Part shown: positions 1 to 34,154 of the stretch, piece by piece
How the letters are laid out: each line of letters begins with the position of its first letter
Numbering within the stretch: position 1 is the stretch's first letter
Assembly: GCA_900128395.1 (NCBI GenBank)
Contig: LT649351.1
Coordinates: 1-34,154, forward strand
Reading direction: 5' to 3'
Source: Stramenopiles sp. TOSAG23-2
Lineage: Eukaryota; Sar
Length of the DNA stretch: 34,154 bases
Program-made: the position numbers and the translations under genes
The notes under the pieces: generated by a model
The model's database searches: none
Told to the model about the DNA's origin: nothing
What the model saw: the letters and a program-made list of their open reading frames with translations, nothing else

Positions 1-323
1 GGAAGTCCACAACAATGTGAACACACCACAAACAAAATAAAGCTTTCTCGCACTTCTATAAATGGTGCAATGCTAAAGTCACCATACATACACCTTCGTA
101 GAATAATCATTACATTTTTACACAGAGCACCACATACTATTATGGTAAAAACAAACAGATATTACATAGAAATATCATTATTATATAAATAATTCTCATA
201 CATATATACATTCATCATATACATTCATCATCATCATCAAATGTATAAAAAAAGAATATCAACAACAACAATTGAAAAAAATATATTTAGTACGTACATC
301 ATACACACACATATAAAACAAGC
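1..323. other. 5' flank of prohibitin, no gene seen
   Basis: AT-rich leader and presumed promoter of the prohibitin gene. It holds a CATCATCATCAT stretch near 222-238, CAACAACAACA near 260, and TA-rich runs, with CA repeats just before the ATG. I see no coding region, and the window begins here. The mirror is 33832-34154. Confidence 0.6.
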
Positions 324-1151
324 ATGTCGTATTTAAATGCCGCGAAAAAAATTTCACAAGGTGTATTAGGTCTTGGTGTAGCAGGTGTAATTTTACAAAA
401 TTCTTTATATGATGTTGACGGTGGTGAAAGGGCTGTGATATATGATCGTTTTCGTGGTGTATTGCCAAAAGTAAAAGAACCAGGGATGCATTTTAAAATG
501 CCATATATACAATACCCGCACATTTATGATGTAAAATCTAGGCCTAGAACTGTAAATACATCGACCGGTTCCAAAGATTTACAGCAAGTTAATATATCCT
601 TACGTATATTATCACATCCTATACCAGATAAAATACCAACTATTCATGGTGAAATTGGACAAGATTATGACGATCGTGTATTGCCATCGATTGCACCGGA
701 AATATTAAAAGCAATTGTGGCACAATACGATGCAGAGCAATTGATTACCAATCGCGAGCAAGTATCACGCGAAATCTCAGAAACATTAATTGAAAGAGCT
801 GGACAATTTCATTTAAATGTCACCGATGTATCTATTACACATTTAACTTTTATGAAAGAATTCGAACGTTCTATTGAACATAAACAAATTGCACAACAGG
901 AAGCTGAACGTGCAAAATTCATTGTTGCCATGGCAGAGCAAGAAGCAAAAGCAGCAGTTATACGAGCAGAAGGGGAGTCTGAAAGTGCAAGAATTATTAC
1001 AGAAGCATTATCAAAATCAGGTGAAGGTGTCATTCAAGTACGTCGTATTGATGCGGCAAAAGAAATTGCAACAGCATTGGCTGGATCAGGTAATGTTACA
1101 TATTTACCAGGTCAAGGTAATATGTTATTAGGATTAAATTCTGGAAGGTAA
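324..1151 (+). CDS. PHB1: Prohibitin 1 (mitochondrial inner-membrane scaffold)
   Basis: This 275-aa protein is a full-length prohibitin 1; the usual length is about 272-280. Family knowledge: PHB1 and PHB2 form ring complexes in the mitochondrial inner membrane that hold m-AAA protease and stabilise cristae and respiratory complexes. Visible features are a hydrophobic anchor at about residues 13-24 (GVLGLGVAGVIL), the RAVIYDRFRGV start of the SPFH/Band-7 domain near 36, the GSKDLQ and DYDDRVLPS blocks, VSITHLTF near residue 170, and the coiled coil beginning AQQEAERAKF. It matches PHB1 rather than PHB2 in the short N-terminus and the NVTYLPGQ ending. The ATG at 324 is at the expected N-terminus and the stop is TAA. 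There is no intron. It converges on the 99-aa orphan gene 804 bp downstream. Confidence 0.97.
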   Translation: MSYLNAAKKISQGVLGLGVAGVILQNSLYDVDGGERAVIYDRFRGVLPKVKEPGMHFKMPYIQYPHIYDVKSRPRTVNTSTGSKDLQQVNISLRILSHPIPDKIPTIHGEIGQDYDDRVLPSIAPEILKAIVAQYDAEQLITNREQVSREISETLIERAGQFHLNVTDVSITHLTFMKEFERSIEHKQIAQQEAERAKFIVAMAEQEAKAAVIRAEGESESARIITEALSKSGEGVIQVRRIDAAKEIATALAGSGNVTYLPGQGNMLLGLNSGR

Positions 1152-1955
1152 ATATATATATATGATATTATATATTAATATATTAAAAATATAAAAAATA
1201 CAAATGCTTTTGTGTGATGATATATGATGATGATGAAAAAAAAAAAAAAGAAGAAAAAGAAAAACTTGATATTGTAGCGTTATGCATGTAATGAAATTTA
1301 GATGATATATATATATATATATATGTATGATTGTAATATATATATAGTAGAAAAAAGAAAAAGAAGAAGTTTCTAATACATGATAAAGTAATATATTATT
1401 ATTGTGGAAATACGTGATCCATTAATTTTTGAAAGAATGAAATGAAAAACGTTTTTTTTTTTTGGATGGTGTATGACACAATTATATATATATATATATA
1501 CACATATGTGTATACATATTTTGGTGTGTGTAATATGATGTATGTATTTATATGCATACGGTGAGAGGCAATAATGGTTAGAAATAGCTTACGAAAAAAA
1601 GAAAATGTGATAATGTAAAAGAAGCTTTGTGAGAGCTGGGAGAGAAAAAATATGTATTACACTCGAACGTATAATTGTGTGTGCGGTGTATATATTTATT
1701 TTTAAAATTTATATATATATATAATATATATTATACTCGTATAAAATATATATTATATATAATTATTATTATAAAAATTTGATACGAAGAGGGTATTATT
1801 CGCGTGTGTGTAATTTATTAAAAAAATACAAAGATTGAAATAATGGAAATTAGAGTGATTGATTTTACATTGATTTTTAGAATAAAAAAAAGCCTAAAAG
1901 CCTTCATATCGCCATACCTCGTAGAAATATTTAAAAAAAAATAGTATACGTGTAT
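1152..1955. other. Convergent intergenic region, AT-rich, 3' signals
   Basis: Region between the 3' ends of prohibitin and the 99-aa gene. It holds a 14-bp A run (about 1236-1249), (AT)10 at 1305-1324, a 12-bp T run near 1452, (TA)9 at 1483-1500, and a dyad at 1731-1744. TGTATATA at 1687-1694 would read as a consensus PUF site if it is in the prohibitin 3' UTR, but such strings are expected often in DNA this AT-rich. Position 1652 differs between arms. No gene is evident. Confidence 0.6.
1731..1744. terminator. Small dyad TTATAC-TC-GTATAA in 3' flank
   Basis: Perfect 6+2+6 inverted repeat in the convergent region between prohibitin and the 99-aa gene. It resembles dyads behind the other genes. 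A role in 3'-end formation is inference. Mirror at 32411-32424. Confidence 0.3.
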
Positions 1956-2255
1956 CTATTTTTTACGATTCGAACTAGATTTCTTTCTACCAGCACCATT
2001 ATTACTTTTACGACCACTATTGCGATTATTATTCCCCACTTTATTTGACTTTGTCTTTGATTTTGTATCAATACCGTCTCCAATTTTTTGTTTCAAGTTT
2101 AAATGTCCTAACGCTTCTTCAAATTCTATTGTCTCCCTTACACCGTTTTCAAACCGTTCATTCTCTGGCTCTTCATGTGTATTCATTGACGCTCCTCCTA
2201 AATCTGAATGTCTCATCGCTTCCAATGCATCTTCTTCATCATCCGTGGAATCCAT
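1956..2255 (-). CDS. Hypothetical 99-aa charged protein
   Basis: I do not recognise this gene. It encodes 99 aa with a sharp charge split: the N-terminus is acidic (MDSTDDEEDALEAMRHSD), the middle has REGION-like charged helix potential around GVRETIEFEEALGHLNL, and the C-terminal 40 residues are Lys, Arg, Asn and Ser-rich, ending SSSNRKK. There is no signal peptide, membrane segment or Cys motif. The basic tail would suit nucleolar or nucleic-acid binding, but that is only inference. The start is a real ATG and the stop is TAG. Its place in the strict alternating-strand layout, between a convergent and a divergent region, favours a real gene. It is divergent from the universal stress gene, 1,285 bp away. 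Confidence 0.65.
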   Translation of the reverse strand: MDSTDDEEDALEAMRHSDLGGASMNTHEEPENERFENGVRETIEFEEALGHLNLKQKIGDGIDTKSKTKSNKVGNNNRNSGRKSNNGAGRKKSSSNRKK

Positions 2256-3540
2256 CTTTTGTTATGTACAATAATATAATTGATGATGTTTTCAATAGTG
2301 TGTGGATATATCTCTATACATTCATTCTATATATGGATAAATATAATTTCAATGATAATGTATAACAAATATATAATAATGGATGATTTAAATATGATAG
2401 TGCGATACAGCATTAGCATAATAGTCGAGGAGTACCAGAGAGTACCTCGCCGCTTTGCGTATAAGCAAATACAGTACAGTATTATAGCATGAAACTTTAA
2501 AAAACAGGACTGCGTTCCATAAGCAAAGCTTGAAAATTTAGATCCCCCCACTCCCCACTCAATAAGATCGATCAATATGTCTAAAATTTCTATCCTTCCT
2601 ACCACACAGCATATAATTTGACCATTGAAAAAAACAACATGGTACTATTGGATAAGTGTCTTACGATATGAATAGCATTGTGCTGATGTAAATCATTCGC
2701 AATAAGGACCATGACCATATAGATAATACACAAAAAACAATTAAAACAAATAAAACAAAACAACAACAAACGATAACAACTGAACCATCTGCAATGACAA
2801 GTGTTGCTACGATACATTCTCAATAAAAATTGAATATGTATTTAATGACATAGCAATAAACCAATATAATGAATTTCAAGTCAGTTTGATGGTTCGTTCA
2901 CAAAAAATTTTAATCACAATCATGATTTTATACGAGGTTCTCCTAAATTCTGTATTCTATTGCCACCTAAAACAACCGTGGTAGCTTGGGTTTTACCCAA
3001 TTATTTCAAACGTCTAATAAACTGGTACCTACTGTAGCTCTAGCCATGCTAGCCCAGCTAGTGTACTATATACCTAGTACCTAAAATATAGGTGATAGGT
3101 GAAGTAAGTGCAACTGTAGACACAATAATAATGCTACTATGAAAATATACAGCTCCACACAGGCTTACCACTACTGGCTACGCACTTACCAGGCTTACAA
3201 TACTGTACAGTACGTTTTTGATACAGTACGCGCTCTTGCATCGTGTTGATGCCGCGGAGAAACCATTGATGGGAGAAGTATAAGTTGATGTACGCCTGCT
3301 AGCTGGCTGGGCTGGCTAGTAACGTATTTACAGGTAAATATCATTATCGTGCGTGCATTTATCGATAAATAATGTTACTTTCTTTCAAATACAACAACAT
3401 ATATATAATACATACATCTGTATATCGATACAAAAAAACAATAACATACAATATTATCATCTTTATTATTACAATAATCATCATTAATATATATATATAT
3501 ATATACGGTTTATTTACCATTTACAAAATAAAAAGAAAAG
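2256..3540. promoter_or_regulatory. Divergent promoter region of the 99-aa gene and the USP gene
   Basis: This 1,285-bp region has no convincing gene. It contains a near-perfect dyad at about 2426-2449 (CGAGGAGTAC / GTACCTCG around direct repeats of AGTACC), and a TTGGGT-TTT-ACCCAA hairpin at 2986-3000. A less AT-rich stretch from about 2960 to 3320 carries AGGCTTAC twice (3161, 3191), the palindrome TACTGTACAGTA at 3201-3212, and GCTGGCTGGGCTGGCTAG near 3300. An AT microsatellite lies at 3487-3505 just before the USP start. Position 3075 differs between arms. Confidence 0.5.
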
Positions 3541-4496
3541 ATGGCGAAAAAAATAACAGTAGGAGTGGATGGTTCAGAAATTGCACATATGGCATATCAA
3601 TGTGCAGCCTATTTACGAAAACCAGAGGATAAAATTGATGTATTTCATATATCAACACCAGGGAAAGATTATTTGCCATATGATTTACAACCGGATTATA
3701 TAAAAGAAAATTATGACAATCTTTTAATTTCATCTGTGCCAGAAGATAGACGCACGGTAACAATTGTTGAGAAAAAAACGGGACAAAGTACAAAAGGTGC
3801 TGTATGTGAATATATTAATAATGCAGATGAAAAAACTGACTTTTTAGTTGTTGGTTGTGCAGGACGAAAAGGACCAAAAACCGATCCAACTATATTAGGA
3901 TCAACAACTGATTATTCACTAAGAGCAGCACATTGCTCATGTATCATAGTGAAGAAGAAGATGGAAAAATTTGCTGAAGCGGAAGAGAGATCAAAAGCAA
4001 AATTTATGGCTTGTGTTGATGGTAGTGATAATTCACATAAAGCATATACCGAAGCATGTCGTATTGCATTTGATACAGATGAACTAATAATATTACATAT
4101 CTATTCTGCTGAAGAGGCAGAAGTTAACGACGATGGAATCACAAAAGCGGATGAGATTACTAAAAAATATACTGATTTAGGTCGTGGTACAGTCAAAATT
4201 GTCGAAAAAATGGGAGGTACATCGATATCCAAACAAATCTTACAAGTTGCTACAGATGAGGAAGTTGATTTTGTTGTTGTTGGTGCTGATGGTATGGGTG
4301 CATATTTAAATGGGTAAGTTTAACAATATGCTACAAGTACAGTATATTTAAATGATACGTATATAAAAATTTACTCTAACAGATTTTCACTTTACCACAA
4401 AAATGCAGATCTCCTAAATTGGGATCAGTCAGTGATTATGTTGCTAAAAATGCAAAAATGGGAGCAATTATTACAGAAGTATTAACATCGTCATAA
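3541..4496 (+). CDS. Tandem-domain universal stress protein, one intron
   Basis: Two UspA-fold domains in tandem make a 286-aa protein. USP domains are small nucleotide-binding folds; in eukaryotic algae and plants they are linked to stress responses, with partners unknown here. Domain 1 starts KKITVGVDGSE (residues 3-13) and ends with the ATP loop GCAGRKGP...GST. Domain 2 starts FMACVDGSDNS near 156 and has the matching loop GADGMGAYLNGSPKLGS. The unspliced frame stops at 4317 in the middle of that loop. A GTAAGT donor at 4314 and an ATGCAG acceptor ending at 4408 give a 95-nt intron. Splicing joins exon 3541-4313 to 4409-4496, rebuilding codon 258 (Gly) and adding 28 residues before a TAA. 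Total coding length is 861 nt, in frame. It is convergent with the kinesin gene. Confidence 0.93.
4314..4408 (+). other. Spliceosomal intron, 95 nt, phase 2
   Basis: Donor G/GTAAGT at 4314 and acceptor ATGCAG/A ending at 4408. Removal restores the second G-2X-G...GS nucleotide loop and the C-terminal helix ending in EVLTSS. This is the only intron I can support in the arm. Mirror intron at 29747-29841. Confidence 0.92.
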
Positions 4497-4707
4497 AAAA
4501 ATAAACACCGCGTAAAGAGAAATAGAAGAAGAAAAATGAATACATGTAGTATTTTACCATATTATATTTAATATGTAGTATAAAATGCACATGAGAAGAC
4601 AATATGATGAAAAGAGCTTTTTCTATGATAAAGAGCCAATGATATATATATAGTATCTATGGAAGCTCTATAAAACAAATGATAAAGTATATATGTGTAT
4701 GTGATGA

Positions 4708-4721
4708 TACGAGTTCTCGTA
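4708..4721. terminator. Small dyad TACGAG-TT-CTCGTA behind the USP gene
   Basis: Perfect 6+2+6 inverted repeat 212 bp after the USP stop. It belongs to the ACG/CGT-armed dyads found in all convergent regions here. Function is inferred only from position. Mirror at 29434-29447. Confidence 0.35.
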
Positions 4722-4951
4722 ACATAAAAAGTAGACACATATCGTATATAATTATAAAAAAATGTGTAAAAAATAAAGAAAATTTTTTAAAAATAACACA
4801 TGCCTATAAAATTTTTTGAAAAATAAAATATATCCCCCCACATATGATTATATAATCATATACGCATATTTTTTTATTTTATACGCGTGTATACAGTGTG
4901 TACGAGAAGTAAAAATCGTACGGTTCGCGTAATATATATATTATATATTCT

Positions 4952-4961
4952 TTCGTACGAA
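4952..4961. terminator. Palindrome TTCGTACGAA in the kinesin 3' flank
   Basis: Ten-base perfect palindrome about 230 bp beyond the kinesin stop, inside a cluster of TACGA/TCGTA words (4898-4980). Mirror at 29194-29203. Confidence 0.3.
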
Positions 4962-5191
4962 GTATATTATACGAGTCGTATGCATATCATATTTGTATCA
5001 TACACTTTTCATCCAAAGTAAAATTAAAAATTGCATATGTAGAGGTCTCTAAAAATACGCGGATGTTACTTTTTTTTTGTGTGTGTTTCATATTTTTTTT
5101 AAAAAAAATACGAGAGTATAATTCTTAAACATGCGTAAATTAACTTTTTAAAATTATAAACACATAATATTTTATAAGAGAGTATATTTTT

Positions 5192-8128
5192 TTATATCGA
5201 TGTAGTAATAGAATCACCATTTCGAATCAGTTCAGCAGTAGTATCCTGTTGCTGAGGCTCCTTCCCTAAAGTAGTTGTCGTATTATTTGAACGTAATTTT
5301 CTTCTCTTTTTACGCGTATTATTATTACCACCATTGATAACATTATTGTTATTATTATTTTCACCATCATTATCATCATCACCTTCTTTTGCTACAGATT
5401 GCTTTTCGATATTCGTGGAAGTAGTATCAACATCATCATTAAATACACTTCGTTTATTTAAATTAGAACCATACATGCCTTTTTTTCGATTGTTATGGAT
5501 GGTTAATTTTTTTTTCAATTTTATAATATCTTTTTGAGCTTTGATATATTTTTTTTCCCATTCATCCCTTTCGCTTTCAACTTTTTGTATACCCTCAATA
5601 TACAATGATTTTTTTTGCTTTTGTTTCTGCGCTTTACGGATGGCTTTTTCTGCTAAATGTTCCACGTGATCTATGTAAGTACGATAATCCTCAATTTCCT
5701 TTACTAATTTTTTCGCCATGTTGGCTAATTCACCACGTTGATGCAATATACTTAATTGCTGTTTGCTTTTATTCAATTTTTCATCTTTCATTTTCATTTG
5801 ACTAATTTTTGCTTTACGAGTTTCGTTTTGATAATGTAGACTATCGATTTCAGCATCCAAACGTTTTCCATCAGCTTCTAGGACAGCGATAGCTCTAGAA
5901 TGTGCTAATTGTTTGATACGCTCCCCTAGCTGTGTCCTGGAACTATCCAAATCAGCCCTTAAATCATCTATGACTTCCGCCTCATGCATTGCACTCGTTT
6001 CAATATGATGAATGTTTGCATTTAAAGTAGCTTTTTCCTCCGCGTGTTTTGTTTCAGATACCAACAATCTTTCCCTTAATTCTTCCACTTCCTTTTTTAA
6101 ACTTGGATCTGATGAAGCATTTAAATTACTCATCTGTTCATTGATTATATTTTTTTCATCACCATATTGTTTATTTAATGTATCAATAGTATTTCGTAAC
6201 GATATTGCTTCATTACAAGCCGAGATGTTATTTTCTTCTAATTCTTTTACTTGTTCATTTCGTTCCATTACTTGCTGTTGCAAATAATTGATTTGTCTGA
6301 TTTTTTCTCTTAAAATAGCTGATTGTGTATTATTCATCAAGAACATATTGTTGTTACTATTACTATTGCTACCATGTTTATTATAGTTTATTATATTATC
6401 ATTGTTTTTATTGTTCATTGGATCATTAATATTACCAGCAACCGTAGTAGTAGTAGTAGTAGTAGTAGTAGAATGTCTTGCAACATTACGTATCATTCGT
6501 GCTTTCGTTGCATATTCTAATGTCATTAATGTTTCACGATAATGTTCTGATGTTGGATTTATATGTGCTAAAAATATTGTTTTTGAATTGCCACCTAATG
6601 AATCTTTTAGTAAATATGTTAATTTACTATCGCGATATGGAGCCAACCATAAATCCGTATTGCTATTTGATAATGTCATCAATACATTAGATAAACATGA
6701 TAAAGATAAGTTAATCGCTTGCCTTTCTTTCAACTCTTGACCACTTGTACTAGTCACGGATAATCGATCGCTACCAGCTAAATCAACAATATGAAATTTA
6801 GAGCGACTTACTATCGTATTATCATGCAAAGATTTTGTTACATAAAATGTAACGATTGCATGTGATCGAGAAGATGCTTTATTATTACAATGTCTTGCAC
6901 TGTTACCTTTTTTAATTTGTAAAATAGCTTGTTCTGCAGAAACAATGTTTGTACGTAACGAATCGGTCCCAGTCAACGTTATACCATTTCGACCTTTATC
7001 ATGCAATTCAATAGTACCATGCCGATTATTGTTATTACTACTATCATCGTCCTCGTTCATATATAATAAATCTTGAAAACGATTATTGTATAATTCAACA
7101 TATCCAATGGATACATCATATGTCACATTTGCAGAGGCACGATCTTTCATACCAAGAAATAGATCTGATACAATGCGTGGCAATATGCCACTACATTTTG
7201 TATTGCCCATAATTGTATAGGTTTTCCCCGTACCAGTAGCACCATATGCAAGTACGGTTGCGTTGAAACCATCTAAAACAGAATTCACTAATGGTTGAAC
7301 TTTTTCATATATTAAATTTTGAGAAACATTACTTGTTAATGTATTACTAATAACTGAATCAAAATGAAATGCCTTTGGTTTTGGACGTTGTGGTGTTCTC
7401 CATGGTGTGCCATGACCATGCGATGATGAATAACGTTTTCTCATTGATGCAGGTGCAATACCATCCTTTGGTGCTCTTAATGTTAAACCTTTTGATGATT
7501 GATGAACTGTAACTAAATTTTCATCAATATTATCATTATTTGTATTATTATTAGGTAATATGCGTACAATCAATTCTACAGGAGCATGGATACTTGTTGT
7601 TTTTGTCTCAAGAATAGCATTATTTTGCACTTGATATTGTGAGCTATTGTACCTATTTTCATTTGTATTATCGTCGTTACCAATATTGTTGTTGTTGTGG
7701 CGAAAAGGTGACGAATGGGTTGTTGTCCCTTGCAATGGATTTGGCAACGACGTAGAAGAAAAGGATGATACATAGTTGAAATTATTGTCGTTATTGTTGT
7801 TTGGTATTTGATTAATTTTTGAAAATAAACGATTTGGTTCACCTGTTGTTATTGAATTGATATTATTCTTTGCTGAAGGCGAACCAATCAAGTTATTTGT
7901 CGTTGTATTTGACCCAAATAAGTTTTTGCTGTTATTTGTATTGTTTGACATAGATAACAAGTCTTTACCTATAAATGCTAATAACTTTTGTTCGTGTTGT
8001 TGTTGTTGTTGTGAAATACTACTACCCTTTTTACTATTTTTATTTTTGTTGATTAATTCAACTAAACTTTGTGGTTTATACTTTGTACCTTTATCATCTT
8101 TTAATAAAGAGGAAAACGATGATTTCAT
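5192..8128 (-). CDS. Kinesin-like motor protein, subfamily unassigned
   Basis: This 978-aa protein has a complete kinesin motor domain at about residues 182-550. Visible motifs: P-loop GATGTGKT (296-303), switch I NNKASSRSH (415-423), switch II VDLAGSD (448-454), the RDSKLTYLLKDSLGG block and the ATKARMIRN end (540-548). These support an ATP-driven microtubule motor. The first 180 residues are Asn, Ser and Thr-rich with a QQQQQ run, so the motor is not at the extreme N-terminus. A poly-Thr run follows the motor. Heptad-rich coiled coil spans about 600-880, which suggests dimerisation. The tail has an NLS-like RKKRRKLR (939-946) and Asn and Thr tracts. Nuclear or spindle function is possible but not shown. 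In this arm residue 394 is Asn; the mirror copy has Lys. It is divergent from UFD1 and ends in TAA. Confidence 0.95.
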   Translation of the reverse strand: MKSSFSSLLKDDKGTKYKPQSLVELINKNKNSKKGSSISQQQQQHEQKLLAFIGKDLLSMSNNTNNSKNLFGSNTTTNNLIGSPSAKNNINSITTGEPNRLFSKINQIPNNNNDNNFNYVSSFSSTSLPNPLQGTTTHSSPFRHNNNNIGNDDNTNENRYNSSQYQVQNNAILETKTTSIHAPVELIVRILPNNNTNNDNIDENLVTVHQSSKGLTLRAPKDGIAPASMRKRYSSSHGHGTPWRTPQRPKPKAFHFDSVISNTLTSNVSQNLIYEKVQPLVNSVLDGFNATVLAYGATGTGKTYTIMGNTKCSGILPRIVSDLFLGMKDRASANVTYDVSIGYVELYNNRFQDLLYMNEDDDSSNNNNRHGTIELHDKGRNGITLTGTDSLRTNIVSAEQAILQIKKGNSARHCNNKASSRSHAIVTFYVTKSLHDNTIVSRSKFHIVDLAGSDRLSVTSTSGQELKERQAINLSLSCLSNVLMTLSNSNTDLWLAPYRDSKLTYLLKDSLGGNSKTIFLAHINPTSEHYRETLMTLEYATKARMIRNVARHSTTTTTTTTTVAGNINDPMNNKNNDNIINYNKHGSNSNSNNNMFLMNNTQSAILREKIRQINYLQQQVMERNEQVKELEENNISACNEAISLRNTIDTLNKQYGDEKNIINEQMSNLNASSDPSLKKEVEELRERLLVSETKHAEEKATLNANIHHIETSAMHEAEVIDDLRADLDSSRTQLGERIKQLAHSRAIAVLEADGKRLDAEIDSLHYQNETRKAKISQMKMKDEKLNKSKQQLSILHQRGELANMAKKLVKEIEDYRTYIDHVEHLAEKAIRKAQKQKQKKSLYIEGIQKVESERDEWEKKYIKAQKDIIKLKKKLTIHNNRKKGMYGSNLNKRSVFNDDVDTTSTNIEKQSVAKEGDDDNDGENNNNNNVINGGNNNTRKKRRKLRSNNTTTTLGKEPQQQDTTAELIRNGDSITTSI

Positions 8129-8795
8129 GATTAGAATAATTTGTTTTTATTATTGTAAATGTTTCTATCTTTTTGATTGAAATCCAATGTAATTATGGTT
8201 CTTTGTTATATATGTTTTGCTATACCTCCACTCTTTCACTGCTGTATATTTATCTCTATTTCTTGTATAAAAATTTCAAAATGTACTATAATTAATTCTA
8301 TAGTTATTAATAGTAGTACGTACTTACTATTCTATTATCAGAGCTAAGAAGTTATGTGTTTTTTTCCTTGAAGAAAAAAGACGAAATAACTATAAATTAA
8401 AGTACAACATTAGTATACGGAATAATAGGAGAGCTAATAACGGTTTTAACACTACATTATCATTACAAATCATGTCGTTAGGACACTGTGATGTATACCA
8501 GGTATACTGAGCGGTACTGCGGTATGTTTTTCAACAACCAAAGAATAACTACTTGTAATTTGTATTCAAAGATCAATAATATTACCATACTAATTACATA
8601 TTAACAAAAACATGCACCTAATAACGTCCATATATATCACATATATATACAGATATATAACTTAGATATACTAGTAACAGAGAACGTAGATATAGAAAGT
8701 AGAAAGAACAATATATATATATATATATACATAGGAAGCAATCATTCATTTATATTTATATATTCACAAATATATCAATACAATTTCCTTCAAAA
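8129..8795. promoter_or_regulatory. Divergent promoter region of kinesin and UFD1
   Basis: A 667-bp region between two start codons, with no gene. It holds the dyad GTATACC-A-GGTATAC (8493-8507), followed by GCGGTACTGCGGTATG, a GTACGTAC near 8316, and an AT tract at 8711-8729 shortly before the UFD1 start. The size and layout suit a shared bidirectional promoter. Confidence 0.55.
8493..8507. promoter_or_regulatory. Dyad GTATACC-A-GGTATAC, possible factor site
   Basis: Perfect 7+1+7 inverted repeat near the middle of the kinesin/UFD1 divergent region. Its symmetry and GTAC-like content resemble dyads in the other divergent regions. Binding by a dimeric factor is inference. Mirror at 25648-25662. 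Confidence 0.35.
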
Positions 8796-10796
8796 ATGTC
8801 ATCGAGACGACGTAAACCATTATATCCAAATGCATGGGGATCCGGTACAAAACCATTCGAAGCAACATATAAAGTATTTTCTGTTGGTTCCTGTGGAAGG
8901 GACGATTTAGAAGCTGGGGATAAAGTTATATTGCCAGAAGCAGCATTTCGTGAGGTATCTAGATTGCGTTTAGAGTTTCCATTAATGATGCATGTAAAAG
9001 GCGTTAAGAAAGCAGGACCACGTTCCCAGGCAAAAAAATATAATCAATTTTGCGGTGTGTTAGAGTTTAGTGCACCAGCTGGTGTTGCACATATGCCGTT
9101 ATGGATGATTAAAAGCTTAGGTTTACGTGAAGGTGGACGTGTTGCATTTAAGTCAGTTAAAAATCTACCAAAAGGTGAACTTGCTAAGTTTCAGCCTCAT
9201 CAAAAGGAATTTATTGATTTTGCAGCTGCGTTAGGAGTTAGAAACGTGTTAGAACTAGCAATGCAGCATTATTCAGCATTATCTGTTGGGCAAACAATTA
9301 TCATTCAATATGGTAGAGACAAATATGAACTGGATGTTGTTGAGTTACAACCTCGCAAATCGATATCTTTATATGGGACGGTAGATTTAAAAGTAGAATT
9401 TGCACCATGGGACGGGCCTCGTATTCTTGATTTACCACCTGCTGAAGATGAAGAGTCAATCGGTGAAAACGATCCAGTATTAAAACCTAGACAACCAAAT
9501 TCCAGAAAGCCAAGTAGTACTAGAAGACCTGTACGTAAAAATTCAAGGGAGGAACGACGTAGTAATAGTAATAATATTAAAAATAGCAATAGTAGGACAA
9601 CACCGACAAAAAATCGTAAAGCAAGCAATAACACCAGTGACCCTAAAAAAAGCAGTAGGACACCAGTTGGTGGGAGAACAAATAGTAGTCGACCAAGAGG
9701 AGGTGCAAATGGTATGAATTCTAAAGTAAGGCCAAAGAATGGATCTATGGCCAATAACAGCAGCAGAAAACCTTTAAATGAAACGACGAGTAGAACCAAT
9801 TCACGTAGTAACAATAACAATGCAAAAGAGAATAAAGCATGGGAGCAAGGAAACAATAACAATACACTGAAAAAATCAGAATCGTCTAATACATTAAATC
9901 GTAAAAATAAACTAGCAAAATTTAAGAAAAGAAATTTAGCTGGGTTAAAAACTGCTGGCAATGACAATGGCAGTACTGCTACAGCAACAAATGAAAAGAT
10001 GGCATCATCTACACCTCCTGCACCTGTATTGAAAAAAAATACAATGACAAGCGTTGACCCACCTACATCATCATCTACAAATACAAGTACTAGTAACAAC
10101 GACACATCAACTGAAAAAGAGCAACCTAAAATGGCTTTCGCAGGTACAGGTAATGTATTAAGTAGTGGGGCTAAAGTAGTTTCAACACCAAAACCAATTG
10201 TAGCTGCTACTACTAATAGTACCTCTAGTAGTAGTAGTAGTAATAATAATAATAATAATGATGTCAAAGATGATGAGGAAAAAGGTGAAACGGAGGCATT
10301 TGCTGGCAAAGGCAAAGTTCTTGGTGGTACTGTTTCTAAACCAGCAGCATCAGTGCCATGGGCTGATTTACATCGCCAACGCCATCAAAGACATATGGAA
10401 CGTAAAAAAAAAGAACAAGCTCAAAAAGAAAAAGAAGAAGCTGAAAAACGCCAAAAGGAGCAAGCACATTTTGCAAAAATAAAAGAAACACTACAAGCGG
10501 AAGCACGTGAACGTGAACTTGCTGCTGCGGAGAAAAAAGCTTTACTTGATGCTCAACGGGCTGAGTTAGAGAGTAAAGTAGAAGATAAATTGATTCGTGA
10601 CCAATTGATTAAAAAGAAAAGAGAGGAAAGAATTGCAAAAAAAAAACAATTAGCACAAGAAAAGAAAGACGCTGAATTGGCAAAACAACTGCAAGAGGAA
10701 ATGGAAGGTGGTAGGGCGAAATCACCTGTCGCTGTTGGTAGTGCAGCACGTGCTGTTAGGAAATCCAAAAAAACAGCACCCAAGAGATTTAAATAA
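8796..10796 (+). CDS. UFD1: UFD1, p97/Cdc48 cofactor with long extension
   Basis: The first 215 residues form the UFD1 double-psi-barrel domain that binds ubiquitin and p97/Cdc48 for ER-associated degradation. Visible family blocks: FCGVLEFSAPAGVAHMPLWM near 85, GLREGGRV, KFQPHQKEFIDFA near 133, LEFAM-type helix LELAMQHYSALSVGQTI, and YELDVVELQP. Two SHP boxes, the p97-binding F-x-G-x-G-x-x-L motif, lie at FAGTGNVL (448-455) and FAGKGKVLGG (502-511). Between the domain and the boxes is a 230-residue Asn, Ser and Arg-rich linker, and after them a Lys/Glu-rich coiled coil at about 540-650. At 666 aa it is twice the length of animal or yeast UFD1. Residue 69 is Gly here and Ser in the mirror copy. 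ATG start and TAA stop; no intron. Confidence 0.95.
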   Translation: MSSRRRKPLYPNAWGSGTKPFEATYKVFSVGSCGRDDLEAGDKVILPEAAFREVSRLRLEFPLMMHVKGVKKAGPRSQAKKYNQFCGVLEFSAPAGVAHMPLWMIKSLGLREGGRVAFKSVKNLPKGELAKFQPHQKEFIDFAAALGVRNVLELAMQHYSALSVGQTIIIQYGRDKYELDVVELQPRKSISLYGTVDLKVEFAPWDGPRILDLPPAEDEESIGENDPVLKPRQPNSRKPSSTRRPVRKNSREERRSNSNNIKNSNSRTTPTKNRKASNNTSDPKKSSRTPVGGRTNSSRPRGGANGMNSKVRPKNGSMANNSSRKPLNETTSRTNSRSNNNNAKENKAWEQGNNNNTLKKSESSNTLNRKNKLAKFKKRNLAGLKTAGNDNGSTATATNEKMASSTPPAPVLKKNTMTSVDPPTSSSTNTSTSNNDTSTEKEQPKMAFAGTGNVLSSGAKVVSTPKPIVAATTNSTSSSSSSNNNNNNDVKDDEEKGETEAFAGKGKVLGGTVSKPAASVPWADLHRQRHQRHMERKKKEQAQKEKEEAEKRQKEQAHFAKIKETLQAEARERELAAAEKKALLDAQRAELESKVEDKLIRDQLIKKKREERIAKKKQLAQEKKDAELAKQLQEEMEGGRAKSPVAVGSAARAVRKSKKTAPKRFK

Positions 10797-10879
10797 AAAA
10801 AAGAGCAGAAAAATTTATTATTATTTTAAAGTAAAAGAAAAACGTGTGAGAAGAAGAAAGTTAATCGCACGGCGGGGGA

Positions 10880-10894
10880 TATACGTTCCGTATA
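10880..10894. terminator. Small dyad TATACG-TTC-CGTATA behind UFD1
   Basis: Perfect 6+3+6 inverted repeat 83 bp after the UFD1 stop, of the same ACG/CGT type as the other 3'-flank dyads. Mirror at 23261-23275. Confidence 0.35.
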
Positions 10895-14337: not shown

Positions 14338-14363
14338 CACAAAAGGTTACAATTTCTTTGCAC

Positions 14364-15367: not shown

Positions 15368-15422
15368 AGTAATTGTTATAATATTATGCTTATAGACTAG
15401 CAACACTATACTACATATGTAC

Positions 15423-22520: not shown

Positions 22521-23358
22521 AGTGATCGTGTGACTTGTACACATCACAAATTTTATTGCATGATGGGACTTTTACCTGAATAATAAAATATAAAGGAATA
22601 GGATTCGATCAGAGAAAATGATGAAAAATGAAAAAGATAATTAAATGTAATTAAAGAATTAGTAAAAAGATATTGAAGAAAATAGAAATGCGAAACATTT
22701 AATTTAATATAACAAACAAACCTAAAAAGAGAGAAAAGAAATTAGGTAAACGTATATATATATATATATATATATACAGATAATAATAAATAGTGTAAAA
22801 GATTTGAAACATGAAAAGAGAAGAACAATTAAATAAAAGAAAAGAAAATAAATCAAATACAAAAATTAATAATAAAATAAATAATAAAAAGAATAAATAA
22901 ATAAATTATATAAAAAAATGAGAACTATGATACAGATATGTAAAATGAAATTAAAACAAGGAGACGTATTGGAATGCAATTAAAGAACGCATAGAACGTA
23001 CATGGGTGTACTGTTTTATAATAGAAAATTTACTACGTGCATGATACGAAGTATATACGTATCATTATGCAAAAAAAAATAGTAGGATATGATATGTATG
23101 ATATGATATTATTCTTTGCGATTGAGTATTGAGCATATTTTACTTAACACGAGAAGTGTAAAATTTTTATATAACTACACGATAAAATATGATACCATAT
23201 ATAAATATCATATCATTTTATGCATATACATATCTATCCTTATTCTCTCTTTTTAATTTTTATACGGAACGTATATCCCCCGCCGTGCGATTAACTTTCT
23301 TCTTCTCACACGTTTTTCTTTTACTTTAAAATAATAATAAATTTTTCTGCTCTTTTTT
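22521..23358. other. Pumilio/UFD1 convergent region, mirror copy
   Basis: Mirror of 10797-11634. It holds (TA)12 at 22753-22776 and dyads at 23041-23065 and 23261-23275. No gene seen. Confidence 0.6.
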
Positions 23359-25359: not shown

Positions 25360-26026
25360 TTTTGAAGGAAATTGTATTGATATATTTGTGAATATATAAA
25401 TATAAATGAATGATTGCTTCCTATGTATATATATATATATATATTGTTCTTTCTACTTTCTATATCTACGTTCTCTGTTACTAGTATATCTAAGTTATAT
25501 ATCTGTATATATATGTGATATATATGGACGTTATTAGGTGCATGTTTTTGTTAATATGTAATTAGTATGGTAATATTATTGATCTTTGAATACAAATTAC
25601 AAGTAGTTATTCTTTGGTTGTTGAAAAACATACCGCAGTACCGCTCAGTATACCTGGTATACATCACAGTGTCCTAACGACATGATTTGTAATGATAATG
25701 TAGTGTTAAAACCGTTATTAGCTCTCCTATTATTCCGTATACTAATGTTGTACTTTAATTTATAGTTATTTCGTCTTTTTTCTTCAAGGAAAAAAACACA
25801 TAACTTCTTAGCTCTGATAATAGAATAGTAAGTACGTACTACTATTAATAACTATAGAATTAATTATAGTACATTTTGAAATTTTTATACAAGAAATAGA
25901 GATAAATATACAGCAGTGAAAGAGTGGAGGTATAGCAAAACATATATAACAAAGAACCATAATTACATTGGATTTCAATCAAAAAGATAGAAACATTTAC
26001 AATAATAAAAACAAATTATTCTAATC
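25360..26026. promoter_or_regulatory. UFD1/kinesin divergent region, mirror copy
   Basis: Mirror of 8129-8795, with the GTATACC-A-GGTATAC dyad at 25648-25662 and an AT tract near 25427-25445. No arm difference was seen here. Confidence 0.55.
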
Positions 26027-28963
26027 ATGAAATCATCGTTTTCCTCTTTATTAAAAGATGATAAAGGTACAAAGTATAAACCACAAAGTTTAGTTGAATT
26101 AATCAACAAAAATAAAAATAGTAAAAAGGGTAGTAGTATTTCACAACAACAACAACAACACGAACAAAAGTTATTAGCATTTATAGGTAAAGACTTGTTA
26201 TCTATGTCAAACAATACAAATAACAGCAAAAACTTATTTGGGTCAAATACAACGACAAATAACTTGATTGGTTCGCCTTCAGCAAAGAATAATATCAATT
26301 CAATAACAACAGGTGAACCAAATCGTTTATTTTCAAAAATTAATCAAATACCAAACAACAATAACGACAATAATTTCAACTATGTATCATCCTTTTCTTC
26401 TACGTCGTTGCCAAATCCATTGCAAGGGACAACAACCCATTCGTCACCTTTTCGCCACAACAACAACAATATTGGTAACGACGATAATACAAATGAAAAT
26501 AGGTACAATAGCTCACAATATCAAGTGCAAAATAATGCTATTCTTGAGACAAAAACAACAAGTATCCATGCTCCTGTAGAATTGATTGTACGCATATTAC
26601 CTAATAATAATACAAATAATGATAATATTGATGAAAATTTAGTTACAGTTCATCAATCATCAAAAGGTTTAACATTAAGAGCACCAAAGGATGGTATTGC
26701 ACCTGCATCAATGAGAAAACGTTATTCATCATCGCATGGTCATGGCACACCATGGAGAACACCACAACGTCCAAAACCAAAGGCATTTCATTTTGATTCA
26801 GTTATTAGTAATACATTAACAAGTAATGTTTCTCAAAATTTAATATATGAAAAAGTTCAACCATTAGTGAATTCTGTTTTAGATGGTTTCAACGCAACCG
26901 TACTTGCATATGGTGCTACTGGTACGGGGAAAACCTATACAATTATGGGCAATACAAAATGTAGTGGCATATTGCCACGCATTGTATCAGATCTATTTCT
27001 TGGTATGAAAGATCGTGCCTCTGCAAATGTGACATATGATGTATCCATTGGATATGTTGAATTATACAATAATCGTTTTCAAGATTTATTATATATGAAC
27101 GAGGACGATGATAGTAGTAATAACAATAATCGGCATGGTACTATTGAATTGCATGATAAAGGTCGAAATGGTATAACGTTGACTGGGACCGATTCGTTAC
27201 GTACAAAAATTGTTTCTGCAGAACAAGCTATTTTACAAATTAAAAAAGGTAACAGTGCAAGACATTGTAATAATAAAGCATCTTCTCGATCACATGCAAT
27301 CGTTACATTTTATGTAACAAAATCTTTGCATGATAATACGATAGTAAGTCGCTCTAAATTTCATATTGTTGATTTAGCTGGTAGCGATCGATTATCCGTG
27401 ACTAGTACAAGTGGTCAAGAGTTGAAAGAAAGGCAAGCGATTAACTTATCTTTATCATGTTTATCTAATGTATTGATGACATTATCAAATAGCAATACGG
27501 ATTTATGGTTGGCTCCATATCGCGATAGTAAATTAACATATTTACTAAAAGATTCATTAGGTGGCAATTCAAAAACAATATTTTTAGCACATATAAATCC
27601 AACATCAGAACATTATCGTGAAACATTAATGACATTAGAATATGCAACGAAAGCACGAATGATACGTAATGTTGCAAGACATTCTACTACTACTACTACT
27701 ACTACTACTACGGTTGCTGGTAATATTAATGATCCAATGAACAATAAAAACAATGATAATATAATAAACTATAATAAACATGGTAGCAATAGTAATAGTA
27801 ACAACAATATGTTCTTGATGAATAATACACAATCAGCTATTTTAAGAGAAAAAATCAGACAAATCAATTATTTGCAACAGCAAGTAATGGAACGAAATGA
27901 ACAAGTAAAAGAATTAGAAGAAAATAACATCTCGGCTTGTAATGAAGCAATATCGTTACGAAATACTATTGATACATTAAATAAACAATATGGTGATGAA
28001 AAAAATATAATCAATGAACAGATGAGTAATTTAAATGCTTCATCAGATCCAAGTTTAAAAAAGGAAGTGGAAGAATTAAGGGAAAGATTGTTGGTATCTG
28101 AAACAAAACACGCGGAGGAAAAAGCTACTTTAAATGCAAACATTCATCATATTGAAACGAGTGCAATGCATGAGGCGGAAGTCATAGATGATTTAAGGGC
28201 TGATTTGGATAGTTCCAGGACACAGCTAGGGGAGCGTATCAAACAATTAGCACATTCTAGAGCTATCGCTGTCCTAGAAGCTGATGGAAAACGTTTGGAT
28301 GCTGAAATCGATAGTCTACATTATCAAAACGAAACTCGTAAAGCAAAAATTAGTCAAATGAAAATGAAAGATGAAAAATTGAATAAAAGCAAACAGCAAT
28401 TAAGTATATTGCATCAACGTGGTGAATTAGCCAACATGGCGAAAAAATTAGTAAAGGAAATTGAGGATTATCGTACTTACATAGATCACGTGGAACATTT
28501 AGCAGAAAAAGCCATCCGTAAAGCGCAGAAACAAAAGCAAAAAAAATCATTGTATATTGAGGGTATACAAAAAGTTGAAAGCGAAAGGGATGAATGGGAA
28601 AAAAAATATATCAAAGCTCAAAAAGATATTATAAAATTGAAAAAAAAATTAACCATCCATAACAATCGAAAAAAAGGCATGTATGGTTCTAATTTAAATA
28701 AACGAAGTGTATTTAATGATGATGTTGATACTACTTCCACGAATATCGAAAAGCAATCTGTAGCAAAAGAAGGTGATGATGATAATGATGGTGAAAATAA
28801 TAATAACAATAATGTTATCAATGGTGGTAATAATAATACGCGTAAAAAGAGAAGAAAATTACGTTCAAATAATACGACAACTACTTTAGGGAAGGAGCCT
28901 CAGCAACAGGATACTACTGCTGAACTGATTCGAAATGGTGATTCTATTACTACATCGATATAA
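26027..28963 (+). CDS. Kinesin-like motor protein, mirror copy with Asn394Lys
   Basis: Same 978-aa kinesin as the left copy: motor 182-550, coiled coil about 600-880, NLS-like RKKRRKLR at 939-946. Codon 394 (27206-27208) is AAA (Lys) here and AAC (Asn) in the left arm. The residue lies in the motor domain about 20 positions before switch I and is not one of the nucleotide-binding motifs. The P-loop, switch I and switch II are intact in both copies. Confidence 0.95.
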   Translation: MKSSFSSLLKDDKGTKYKPQSLVELINKNKNSKKGSSISQQQQQHEQKLLAFIGKDLLSMSNNTNNSKNLFGSNTTTNNLIGSPSAKNNINSITTGEPNRLFSKINQIPNNNNDNNFNYVSSFSSTSLPNPLQGTTTHSSPFRHNNNNIGNDDNTNENRYNSSQYQVQNNAILETKTTSIHAPVELIVRILPNNNTNNDNIDENLVTVHQSSKGLTLRAPKDGIAPASMRKRYSSSHGHGTPWRTPQRPKPKAFHFDSVISNTLTSNVSQNLIYEKVQPLVNSVLDGFNATVLAYGATGTGKTYTIMGNTKCSGILPRIVSDLFLGMKDRASANVTYDVSIGYVELYNNRFQDLLYMNEDDDSSNNNNRHGTIELHDKGRNGITLTGTDSLRTKIVSAEQAILQIKKGNSARHCNNKASSRSHAIVTFYVTKSLHDNTIVSRSKFHIVDLAGSDRLSVTSTSGQELKERQAINLSLSCLSNVLMTLSNSNTDLWLAPYRDSKLTYLLKDSLGGNSKTIFLAHINPTSEHYRETLMTLEYATKARMIRNVARHSTTTTTTTTTVAGNINDPMNNKNNDNIINYNKHGSNSNSNNNMFLMNNTQSAILREKIRQINYLQQQVMERNEQVKELEENNISACNEAISLRNTIDTLNKQYGDEKNIINEQMSNLNASSDPSLKKEVEELRERLLVSETKHAEEKATLNANIHHIETSAMHEAEVIDDLRADLDSSRTQLGERIKQLAHSRAIAVLEADGKRLDAEIDSLHYQNETRKAKISQMKMKDEKLNKSKQQLSILHQRGELANMAKKLVKEIEDYRTYIDHVEHLAEKAIRKAQKQKQKKSLYIEGIQKVESERDEWEKKYIKAQKDIIKLKKKLTIHNNRKKGMYGSNLNKRSVFNDDVDTTSTNIEKQSVAKEGDDDNDGENNNNNNVINGGNNNTRKKRRKLRSNNTTTTLGKEPQQQDTTAELIRNGDSITTSI

Positions 28964-29658
28964 AAAAATATACTCTCTTATAAAATATTATGTGTTTATA
29001 ATTTTAAAAAGTTAATTTACGCATGTTTAAGAATTATACTCTCGTATTTTTTTTAAAAAAAATATGAAACACACACAAAAAAAAAGTAACATCCGCGTAT
29101 TTTTAGAGACCTCTACATATGCAATTTTTAATTTTACTTTGGATGAAAAGTGTATGATACAAATATGATATGCATACGACTCGTATAATATACTTCGTAC
29201 GAAAGAATATATAATATATATATTACGCGAACCGTACGATTTTTACTTCTCGTACACACTGTATACACGCGTATAAAATAAAAAAATATGCGTATATGAT
29301 TATATAATCATATGTGGGGGGATATATTTTATTTTTCAAAAAATTTTATAGGCATGTGTTATTTTTAAAAAATTTTCTTTATTTTTTACACATTTTTTTA
29401 TAATTATATACGATATGTGTCTACTTTTTATGTTACGAGAACTCGTATCATCACATACACATATATACTTTATCATTTGTTTTATAGAGCTTCCATAGAT
29501 ACTATATATATATCATTGGCTCTTTATCATAGAAAAAGCTCTTTTCATCATATTGTCTTCTCATGTGCATTTTATACTACATATTAAATATAATATGGTA
29601 AAATACTACATGTATTCATTTTTCTTCTTCTATTTCTCTTTACGCGGTGTTTATTTTT
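28964..29658. other. Kinesin/USP convergent region, mirror copy
   Basis: Mirror of 4497-5191: TTCGTACGAA at 29194-29203, TACGAG-TT-CTCGTA at 29434-29447, A/T homopolymers, no gene. Confidence 0.6.
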
Positions 29659-30614
29659 TTATGACGATGTTAATACTTCTGTAATAATTGCTCCCATTTT
29701 TGCATTTTTAGCAACATAATCACTGACTGATCCCAATTTAGGAGATCTGCATTTTTGTGGTAAAGTGAAAATCTGTTAGAGTAAATTTTTATATACGTAT
29801 CATTTAAATATACTGTACTTGTAGCATATTGTTAAACTTACCCATTTAAATATGCACCCATACCATCAGCACCAACAACAACAAAATCAACTTCCTCATC
29901 TGTAGCAACTTGTAAGATTTGTTTGGATATCGATGTACCTCCCATTTTTTCGACAATTTTGACTGTACCACGACCTAAATCAGTATATTTTTTAGTAATC
30001 TCATCCGCTTTTGTGATTCCATCGTCGTTAACTTCTGCCTCTTCAGCAGAATAGATATGTAATATTATTAGTTCATCTGTATCAAATGCAATACGACATG
30101 CTTCGGTATATGCTTTATGTGAATTATCACTACCATCAACACAAGCCATAAATTTTGCTTTTGATCTCTCTTCCGCTTCAGCAAATTTTTCCATCTTCTT
30201 CTTCACTATGATACATGAGCAATGTGCTGCTCTTAGTGAATAATCAGTTGTTGATCCTAATATAGTTGGATCGGTTTTTGGTCCTTTTCGTCCTGCACAA
30301 CCAACAACTAAAAAGTCAGTTTTTTCATCTGCATTATTAATATATTCACATACAGCACCTTTTGTACTTTGTCCCGTTTTTTTCTCAACAATTGTTACCG
30401 TGCGTCTATCTTCTGGCACAGATGAAATTAAAAGATTGTCATAATTTTCTTTTATATAATCCGGTTGTAAATCATATGGCAAATAATCTTTCCCTGGTGT
30501 TGATATATGAAATACATCAATTTTATCCTCTGGTTTTCGTAAATAGGCTGCACATTGATATGCCATATGTGCAATTTCTGAACCATCCACTCCTACTGTT
30601 ATTTTTTTCGCCAT
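29659..30614 (-). CDS. Tandem-domain universal stress protein, mirror copy
   Basis: Same two-domain 286-aa protein as the left copy. Exons are 30614-29842 and 29746-29659, with the intron at 29747-29841 spliced by the same GTAAGT and ATGCAG signals. Without splicing, the frame stops within the second nucleotide-binding loop. Confidence 0.92.
29747..29841 (-). other. Spliceosomal intron, mirror copy
   Basis: Same 95-nt GT-AG intron as 4314-4408. Retention of an intact intron shows that the mirror copy is not a retrocopy. Confidence 0.92.
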
Positions 30615-31899
30615 CTTTTCTTTTTATTTTGTAAATGGTAAATAAACCGTATATATATATATATATATTAATGATGATTATTGTAATAATAAAGATGATA
30701 ATATTGTATGTTATTGTTTTTTTGTATCGATATACAGATGTATGTATTATATATATGTTGTTGTATTTGAAAGAAAGTAACATTATTTATCGATAAATGC
30801 ACGCACGATAATGATATTTACCTGTAAATACGTTACTAGCCAGCCCAGCCAGCTAGCAGGCGTACATCAACTTATACTTCTCCCATCAATGGTTTCTCCG
30901 CGGCATCAACACGATGCAAGAGCGCGTACTGTATCAAAAACGTACTGTACAGTATTGTAAGCCTGGTAAGTGCGTAGCCAGTAGTGGTAAGCCTGTGTGG
31001 AGCTGTATATTTTCATAGTAGCATTATTATTGTGTCTACAGTTGCACTTACTTCACCTATCACCTATATTTTAGGTACTGGGTATATAGTACACTAGCTG
31101 GGCTAGCATGGCTAGAGCTACAGTAGGTACCAGTTTATTAGACGTTTGAAATAATTGGGTAAAACCCAAGCTACCACGGTTGTTTTAGGTGGCAATAGAA
31201 TACAGAATTTAGGAGAACCTCGTATAAAATCATGATTGTGATTAAAATTTTTTGTGAACGAACCATCAAACTGACTTGAAATTCATTATATTGGTTTATT
31301 GCTATGTCATTAAATACATATTCAATTTTTATTGAGAATGTATCGTAGCAACACTTGTCATTGCAGATGGTTCAGTTGTTATCGTTTGTTGTTGTTTTGT
31401 TTTATTTGTTTTAATTGTTTTTTGTGTATTATCTATATGGTCATGGTCCTTATTGCGAATGATTTACATCAGCACAATGCTATTCATATCGTAAGACACT
31501 TATCCAATAGTACCATGTTGTTTTTTTCAATGGTCAAATTATATGCTGTGTGGTAGGAAGGATAGAAATTTTAGACATATTGATCGATCTTATTGAGTGG
31601 GGAGTGGGGGGATCTAAATTTTCAAGCTTTGCTTATGGAACGCAGTCCTGTTTTTTAAAGTTTCATGCTATAATACTGTACTGTATTTGCTTATACGCAA
31701 AGCGGCGAGGTACTCTCTGGTACTCCTCGACTATTATGCTAATGCTGTATCGCACTATCATATTTAAATCATCCATTATTATATATTTGTTATACATTAT
31801 CATTGAAATTATATTTATCCATATATAGAATGAATGTATAGAGATATATCCACACACTATTGAAAACATCATCAATTATATTATTGTACATAACAAAAG
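30615..31899. promoter_or_regulatory. USP/99-aa gene divergent region, mirror copy
   Basis: Mirror of 2256-3540. It contains the arm difference at 31080 (G here, so C in left-arm orientation against T3075), which changes a TACCTAGTACC word to TACCCAGTACC. No convincing gene. Confidence 0.5.
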
Positions 31900-32199
31900 A
31901 TGGATTCCACGGATGATGAAGAAGATGCATTGGAAGCGATGAGACATTCAGATTTAGGAGGAGCGTCAATGAATACACATGAAGAGCCAGAGAATGAACG
32001 GTTTGAAAACGGTGTAAGGGAGACAATAGAATTTGAAGAAGCGTTAGGACATTTAAACTTGAAACAAAAAATTGGAGACGGTATTGATACAAAATCAAAG
32101 ACAAAGTCAAATAAAGTGGGGAATAATAATCGCAATAGTGGTCGTAAAAGTAATAATGGTGCTGGTAGAAAGAAATCTAGTTCGAATCGTAAAAAATAG
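31900..32199 (+). CDS. Hypothetical 99-aa charged protein, mirror copy
   Basis: Predicted protein identical to the left copy, with an acidic N-terminus and a basic Asn/Ser/Lys C-terminus, ending at TAG. No family recognised. It converges on the prohibitin mirror copy. Confidence 0.65.
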   Translation: MDSTDDEEDALEAMRHSDLGGASMNTHEEPENERFENGVRETIEFEEALGHLNLKQKIGDGIDTKSKTKSNKVGNNNRNSGRKSNNGAGRKKSSSNRKK

Positions 32200-33003
32200 A
32201 TACACGTATACTATTTTTTTTTAAATATTTCTACGAGGTATGGCGATATGAAGGCTTTTAGGCTTTTTTTTATTCTAAAAATCAATGTAAAATCAATCAC
32301 TCTAATTTCCATTATTTCAATCTTTGTATTTTTTTAATAAATTACACACACGCGAATAATACCCTCTTCGTATCAAATTTTTATAATAATAATTATATAT
32401 AATATATATTTTATACGAGTATAATATATATTATATATATATATAAATTTTAAAAATAAATATATACACCGCACACACAATTATACGTTCGAGTGTAATA
32501 CAAATTTTTTCTCTCCCAGCTCTCACAAAGCTTCTTTTACATTATCACATTTTCTTTTTTTCGTAAGCTATTTCTAACCATTATTGCCTCTCACCGTATG
32601 CATATAAATACATACATCATATTACACACACCAAAATATGTATACACATATGTGTATATATATATATATATAATTGTGTCATACACCATCCAAAAAAAAA
32701 AAACGTTTTTCATTTCATTCTTTCAAAAATTAATGGATCACGTATTTCCACAATAATAATATATTACTTTATCATGTATTAGAAACTTCTTCTTTTTCTT
32801 TTTTCTACTATATATATATTACAATCATACATATATATATATATATATATCATCTAAATTTCATTACATGCATAACGCTACAATATCAAGTTTTTCTTTT
32901 TCTTCTTTTTTTTTTTTTTCATCATCATCATATATCATCACACAAAAGCATTTGTATTTTTTATATTTTTAATATATTAATATATAATATCATATATATA
33001 TAT
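32200..33003. other. 99-aa gene/prohibitin convergent region, mirror copy
   Basis: Mirror of 1152-1955 with one difference at 32503. It includes the TTATAC-TC-GTATAA dyad (32411-32424) and microsatellites of the same length as in the left arm. No gene seen. Confidence 0.6.
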
Positions 33004-33831
33004 TTACCTTCCAGAATTTAATCCTAATAACATATTACCTTGACCTGGTAAATATGTAACATTACCTGATCCAGCCAATGCTGTTGCAATTTCTTTTGCC
33101 GCATCAATACGACGTACTTGAATGACACCTTCACCTGATTTTGATAATGCTTCTGTAATAATTCTTGCACTTTCAGACTCCCCTTCTGCTCGTATAACTG
33201 CTGCTTTTGCTTCTTGCTCTGCCATGGCAACAATGAATTTTGCACGTTCAGCTTCCTGTTGTGCAATTTGTTTATGTTCAATAGAACGTTCGAATTCTTT
33301 CATAAAAGTTAAATGTGTAATAGATACATCGGTGACATTTAAATGAAATTGTCCAGCTCTTTCAATTAATGTTTCTGAGATTTCGCGTGATACTTGCTCG
33401 CGATTGGTAATCAATTGCTCTGCATCGTATTGTGCCACAATTGCTTTTAATATTTCCGGTGCAATCGATGGCAATACACGATCGTCATAATCTTGTCCAA
33501 TTTCACCATGAATAGTTGGTATTTTATCTGGTATAGGATGTGATAATATACGTAAGGATATATTAACTTGCTGTAAATCTTTGGAACCGGTCGATGTATT
33601 TACAGTTCTAGGCCTAGATTTTACATCATAAATGTGCGGGTATTGTATATATGGCATTTTAAAATGCATCCCTGGTTCTTTTACTTTTGGCAATACACCA
33701 CGAAAACGATCATATATCACAGCCCTTTCACCACCGTCAACATCATATAAAGAATTTTGTAAAATTACACCTGCTACACCAAGACCTAATACACCTTGTG
33801 AAATTTTTTTCGCGGCATTTAAATACGACAT
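33004..33831 (-). CDS. PHB1: Prohibitin 1, mirror copy
   Basis: Predicted protein identical to the left copy (275 aa): N-terminal anchor, SPFH domain and coiled coil. It reads inward from the window end, with 323 bp of upstream DNA present. Confidence 0.97.
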   Translation of the reverse strand: MSYLNAAKKISQGVLGLGVAGVILQNSLYDVDGGERAVIYDRFRGVLPKVKEPGMHFKMPYIQYPHIYDVKSRPRTVNTSTGSKDLQQVNISLRILSHPIPDKIPTIHGEIGQDYDDRVLPSIAPEILKAIVAQYDAEQLITNREQVSREISETLIERAGQFHLNVTDVSITHLTFMKEFERSIEHKQIAQQEAERAKFIVAMAEQEAKAAVIRAEGESESARIITEALSKSGEGVIQVRRIDAAKEIATALAGSGNVTYLPGQGNMLLGLNSGR

Positions 33832-34154
33832 GCTTGTTTTATATGTGTGTGTATGATGTACGTACTAAATATATTTTTTTCAATTGTTGTTGTTGATATT
33901 CTTTTTTTATACATTTGATGATGATGATGAATGTATATGATGAATGTATATATGTATGAGAATTATTTATATAATAATGATATTTCTATGTAATATCTGT
34001 TTGTTTTTACCATAATAGTATGTGGTGCTCTGTGTAAAAATGTAATGATTATTCTACGAAGGTGTATGTATGGTGACTTTAGCATTGCACCATTTATAGA
34101 AGTGCGAGAAAGCTTTATTTTGTTTGTGGTGTGTTCACATTGTTGTGGACTTCC
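33832..34154. other. 5' flank of prohibitin, mirror copy
   Basis: Mirror of 1-323, complete to the final base. The window stops at exactly the base that mirrors position 1. Confidence 0.6.

Follow-up and report, generated by a model that had tools for sequence, protein, structure and literature searches.

Contig C118 of the Stramenopiles sp. TOSAG23-2 assembly: a 17-kb palindrome that is very probably an artefact

The window analyzed in this work is the complete contig C118 (LT649351.1), a stretch of 34,154 bases from the genome assembly of Stramenopiles sp. TOSAG23-2 (GCA_900128395.1). The assembly holds 17,453,882 bases in 793 contigs, and the largest of them is 95 kb long. From its first to its last base, C118 is built as a palindrome with two arms of about 17 kb. 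We conclude that the palindrome very probably reflects an error in sequencing or assembly and not a real palindromic chromosome, because two other contigs, C636 and C731, which are unrelated to it, also turn back at their exact midpoints. Its probable origin is the assembly graph, in which one 17-kb locus was walked out and back.

The contig was compared with its own reverse complement over the whole length. In this comparison, position x pairs with position 34155-x, and 17,073 of the 17,077 pairs match, so that C118 as a whole reads as its own reverse complement apart from four pairs. The centre lies at 17077/17078. The arms meet there without a spacer, and they are aligned without a single insertion or deletion (indel), also in the homopolymers. 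A sequence-only reading had described the window as a spacer-free palindrome paired from end to end. The centre, the absence of a spacer and of indels, and the end-to-end extent were all confirmed by our analysis, but the pairing is not perfect (4 mismatches in 17,077 pairs). With these four differences, arm 2 does not copy arm 1 exactly. At two of the four sites the encoded residue changes (N394K in the kinesin and G69S in the UFD1-like protein), and the products of the other four of the six genes are identical between the arms. An inverted repeat of 17 kb is far beyond chance, which does not by itself establish that the cell contains it.

Palindromic contigs and their turning points

The midpoints of other contigs of the assembly were tested for the same symmetry. 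Out of 137 other contigs that were sampled, 124 were testable (batches of 30, 57, and 37), and two of these, C636 and C731, turned out to be palindromic about the exact midpoint (95% interval of the rate, 0.2 to 5.7%). In C636 (12,064 bases, midpoint 6032/6033), 185 of 185 pairs match, and in C731 (10,830 bases, midpoint 5415/5416), 111 of 112 pairs match. Searches with the central pieces of both contigs revealed solely mirrored copies within the same contig, at 5818-6032 and 6033-6247 in C636 and at 5288-5377 and 5454-5543 in C731. These copies place each centre exactly on the contig midpoint. For each of the two contigs, an unrelated inverted repeat would be centred on the midpoint with a chance of about 1 in 10,000. 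Thus, as read in their central parts, two contigs from elsewhere in the assembly repeat the pattern of C118. Since C636 and C731 represent unrelated loci and have other sizes, a recurrent error fits better than one special locus. The leading explanation of the sequence-only reading, in which the assembler followed one locus outward and then returned along it, is supported by these two contigs.

The sample was not fully random and contained no contig larger than C94. It consisted of 19 hand-picked contigs, of which 10 were tested, 20 read out of 100 contigs drawn at random from C60 upward, and 98 read out of a second random 100 from C90 upward. The hand-picked contigs C1, C2, C50, C100, C117, C119, C120, C200, and C300 stand outside the count, as the stretch taken from them ended short of the midpoint, and C90, C293, C390, and C506 were excluded as the midpoint was missed. 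A stringent rule for inverted repeats (spacer of 0-20 bases, at least 34 of 40 bases paired, and the innermost 8 all paired) was also applied to 266,455 sampled bases, among them two runs of N and 4,155 off-centre bases of C118. Only the midpoints of C636 and C731 passed it.

The centres of all three palindromic contigs lie in tracts composed only of A and T, which are 10 bases long in C118, 22 in C636, and 76 in C731. In C636, the centre falls within an A/T dinucleotide tract. In C731, a long A run is followed by TA and then by a long T run, and the mismatched pair of this contig (5414/5417) adjoins the centre. The genome is A/T-rich, and therefore the tract of C118 alone is weak evidence. 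At least five alternating A/T bases, like those at the arm end of C118, precede 1.3% of the positions in the sampled genome sequence, and six A/T-only bases precede 10.98%. Positions after at least 13 A/T-only bases account for 1.8% and those after at least 38 for 0.08%. Taken together, the three centres suggest that self-complementary simple sequence provides the turning points.

Further copies of the arm and its outer flanks were sought in the assembly. With 5,678 of the 17,077 arm bases used as queries, the matches elsewhere were confined to simple sequence of 33 to 179 bases. A second copy of the arm that diverges past the centre was considered and rejected, as this search gave no long match. 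The 18-base word at the centre was also found without mismatch in C5, C412, and C600; a control pattern was equally frequent, so these matches tell nothing. The first 24 bases of C118 are present solely at its two ends among contigs of at least 10 kb, a result that is weak for the outer flank because the smallest contig has 10,001 bases. No TTAGGG or TTTAGGG telomere array was detected on C118 (other telomere types were not sought). In the whole assembly, there was one short match to these repeats, in C194 at 21137, and with just one such match the species may use another repeat.

Several features of other contigs were recorded during sampling. An off-centre inverted repeat with a longer spacer is located at about 6,670-7,230 of C740, a contig that is not itself palindromic, and shorter off-centre inverted repeats occur in C1 and C760. 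Runs of N, which stand for masked or withheld sequence, open C200 (1-2749) and C500 (1-588). The contigs are otherwise ordered by length, and C340 (12,264 bases), C390 (13,843), C506 (10,070), C293 (20,470), and C640 (11,133) are smaller than their rank predicts, as if they had been shortened after sorting.

Origin of the palindrome

In the origin that we regard as probable, the real locus would be a single 17-kb stretch that ends, on its inner side, within a short A/T tract that is self-complementary. The assembler was presumably a short-read, graph-based program, and coverage of the true continuation would have been absent at the inner end. The path may then have passed through the A/T tract into its own reverse complement and retraced the same locus to its start, which would make the contig ends symmetric. 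Minor variants or errors picked up on the return walk would account for the four substitutions. The end-to-end symmetry had already been taken by the sequence-only reading as an argument for an artefact. The artefact is supported by our data, but the symmetry alone would be no proof of it, since a graph-based assembler given a real palindrome would likewise end its contig symmetrically.

Similar contigs have been described in bacteria. In the passages available to us, PMC9455707 reports 81 whole-contig palindromes from SPAdes short-read assemblies of Mycobacterium bovis, which were judged to be a likely assembly error. According to these passages, each contig is in its entirety one palindrome that carries the same genes on both strands, as in C118, and several palindromic contigs occur per data set, as in the assembly studied here. 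The M. bovis palindromes came from many bacterial genomes and were found through identical reverse-complement genes, whereas C118 is eukaryotic and its arms differ at four pairs. The available part of PMC12755884 mentions a few palindromic contigs in cyanobacterial single-cell genomes, which were considered very likely assembly artefacts. As in C118, the second half mirrors the first, and few contigs are affected. Those contigs are described there as exact mirrors, a letter-for-letter identity that C118, with its four mismatched pairs, does not show. A literature search for the phrase "palindromic contig" returned nothing beyond these two papers.

Several observations weigh against the walk through the graph. 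A walk along a single consensus predicts identical arms, yet four pairs differ, and these differences are not fully explained. The mismatch next to the centre of C731 suggests that this junction was backed by some read or variant. The native sequence past the centre of C118 was not found in the search of the assembly, so the self-complementary tract may have another length in its native context. That C636 and C731 are mirrored out to their ends is extrapolated from their central stretches alone. Finally, the available passages of PMC9455707 and PMC12755884 give neither a turning point nor a mechanism.

The palindromes may instead have been formed in vitro, during whole-genome amplification or library preparation, by a 3′ end that primed its own copying on the A/T tract; the assembler would then have assembled palindromic molecules correctly. 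We consider this unlikely. It agrees with the A/T-only self-complementary tracts at all three centres, and both the near-centre mismatch of C731 and the four arm differences of C118 fit error-prone copying. In the part of PMC1855051 available to us, inverted sequences make up more than 85% of the chimeras formed in multiple displacement amplification (MDA), and they resemble C118 in their inverted join, often at short complementary sequences. The same part weakens the in vitro route, as a deletion usually lies between the two parts of an inverted MDA chimera, whereas the halves of C118 and C636 meet without any spacer, and hairpin self-priming was ruled out there as a major route. Moreover, nothing in this analysis shows that the source DNA was amplified. 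It is highly improbable that a fold-back long read, with a missed adapter or joined template and complement, was retained as a contig or outweighed other reads in the consensus. Fold-back long reads produce spacer-free palindromes. Ligation-based nanopore libraries are also described, in the available part of PMC13141652, as a source of chimeric reads, notably inverted repeats. However, no indel separates the arms of C118 over 17 kb, homopolymers included, while the errors of long reads are largely indels. We also judge a maximum of 95 kb among 793 contigs to be low for long-read data at this assembly size.

Large head-to-head duplications exist in nature, for example, the macronuclear rDNA palindrome of Tetrahymena and the inverted-duplication amplicons of Leishmania. 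C118 shares their layout, but in the searches made it had no TTAGGG or TTTAGGG telomere, no Rfam match on the arm, and no second outer flank. An inverted duplication within a chromosome would be expected to show a pair of outer flanks that meet at the arm end, and a free minichromosome to show telomeric or hairpin ends. Neither a second flank joined to the first 24 bases (in contigs of at least 10 kb) nor an array of the two telomere repeats sought was present. The four arm differences would fit two young true copies. At the protein level, the arms differ at 2 of 3,496 residues, and independent metagenomic representatives differ from the window at 5 of 1,592 aligned residues (1/275 for prohibitin, 3/899 plus 2 gap columns for PUF, and 1/418 for COG1). 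The arms are thus closer to each other than to these representatives, as after a recent duplication, and an artefact predicts the same. This comparison is a rough yardstick, because it covers three of the six genes and each representative was taken from a 90%-identity cluster. With two palindromic contigs turning at exact midpoints at unrelated loci, we regard real palindromic DNA in the cell, whether an inverted duplication, a palindromic minichromosome, or a hairpin-ended molecule, as extremely improbable. It is hardly credible, too, that this eukaryote carries a set of true spacer-free palindromes (C118, C636, and C731) with near-identical arms, folded at scattered A/T tracts.

Genes on the arm and consequences for the assembly

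The features of C118 are collected in Table 1. All six Pfam matches of each arm exceed the curated cut-off. Seven duplicated genes had been proposed by the sequence-only reading. Six open reading frames per arm with Pfam matches were recovered, and the seventh gene was not confirmed. A minus-strand open frame at 1956-2261, which encodes about 100 amino acids (aa) starting with MDSTDDEEDALEAM and is protein-like, may be the candidate seventh gene of the arm.

Table 1. Arms, mismatched pairs, proposed turning point, and genes of contig C118.
Feature	Position	Strand	Evidence
Arm 1, read as the real locus	1..17077	+	17,073/17,077 pairs match the other arm
Arm 2, mirror copy	17078..34154	-	Reverse-complement pairing
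A/T-only tract TATATATATA over the centre, proposed turning point	17073..17082		Sequence
Arm mismatch	1652, pairs with 32503		Self-comparison
Arm mismatch	3075, pairs with 31080		Self-comparison
Arm mismatch	6947, pairs with 27208		Self-comparison
Arm mismatch	9000, pairs with 25155		Self-comparison
Prohibitin-like gene (Band_7)	324..1151; mirror 33004-33831	+; mirror -	Pfam PF01145
Universal stress protein gene (Usp)	3541..4317; mirror 29838-30614	+; mirror -	Pfam PF00582
Kinesin gene, residue 394 N/K between arms	5192..8128; mirror 26027-28963	-; mirror +	Pfam PF00225
UFD1-like gene, residue 69 G/S between arms	8796..10796; mirror 23359-25359	+; mirror -	Pfam PF03152, PF24842
Pumilio-family (PUF) gene	11635..14340; mirror 19815-22520	-; mirror +	Pfam PF00806
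COG1-like gene (VPS51_Exo84_N), complete	15673..16929; mirror 17226-18482	+; mirror -	Pfam PF08700

The COG1-like gene is the one closest to the centre, and its stop codon is placed 148 bases short of it. Truncation of this gene by the centre was considered and rejected. The homologues (five of the eight matches were read) have 412-446 aa and end with the C-terminal GGWWW, as does the 418-aa protein of the window. One of the homologues, P0173, has 28 extra residues at the N-terminus, where the frame of the window has a stop. The protein is therefore complete, and no gene is cut by the centre of C118. The protein search gave just eight matches, and the GGWWW terminus is conserved in the five homologues read; this COG1-like protein may be a narrow form of its family.

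In the case of the prohibitin-like gene, the close match P0054 is named prohibitin 1 in a source. Among the 120 matches listed, the named organisms are mostly green algae, with about 54-60% identity. A plasmid search with this gene gave no match. A gene order shared with relatives was not confirmed in viral_contigs, searched via COG1 or prohibitin, or in genome_contigs, searched via PUF. Scanning of arm 1 for tRNA and for Rfam families, rRNA among them, also gave no match.

The case of C118 is mainly a quality warning for this assembly. If the rate of the sample held for the other 792 contigs, about 13 of them (95% interval about 2 to 45, from a sample that is not fully random) would be false palindromes. 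Ordinary genes appear twice in such contigs, and studies of paralogues, synteny, or genome size could be misled by them. A reverse-complement test about the contig midpoint that allows a few differences would detect these contigs.

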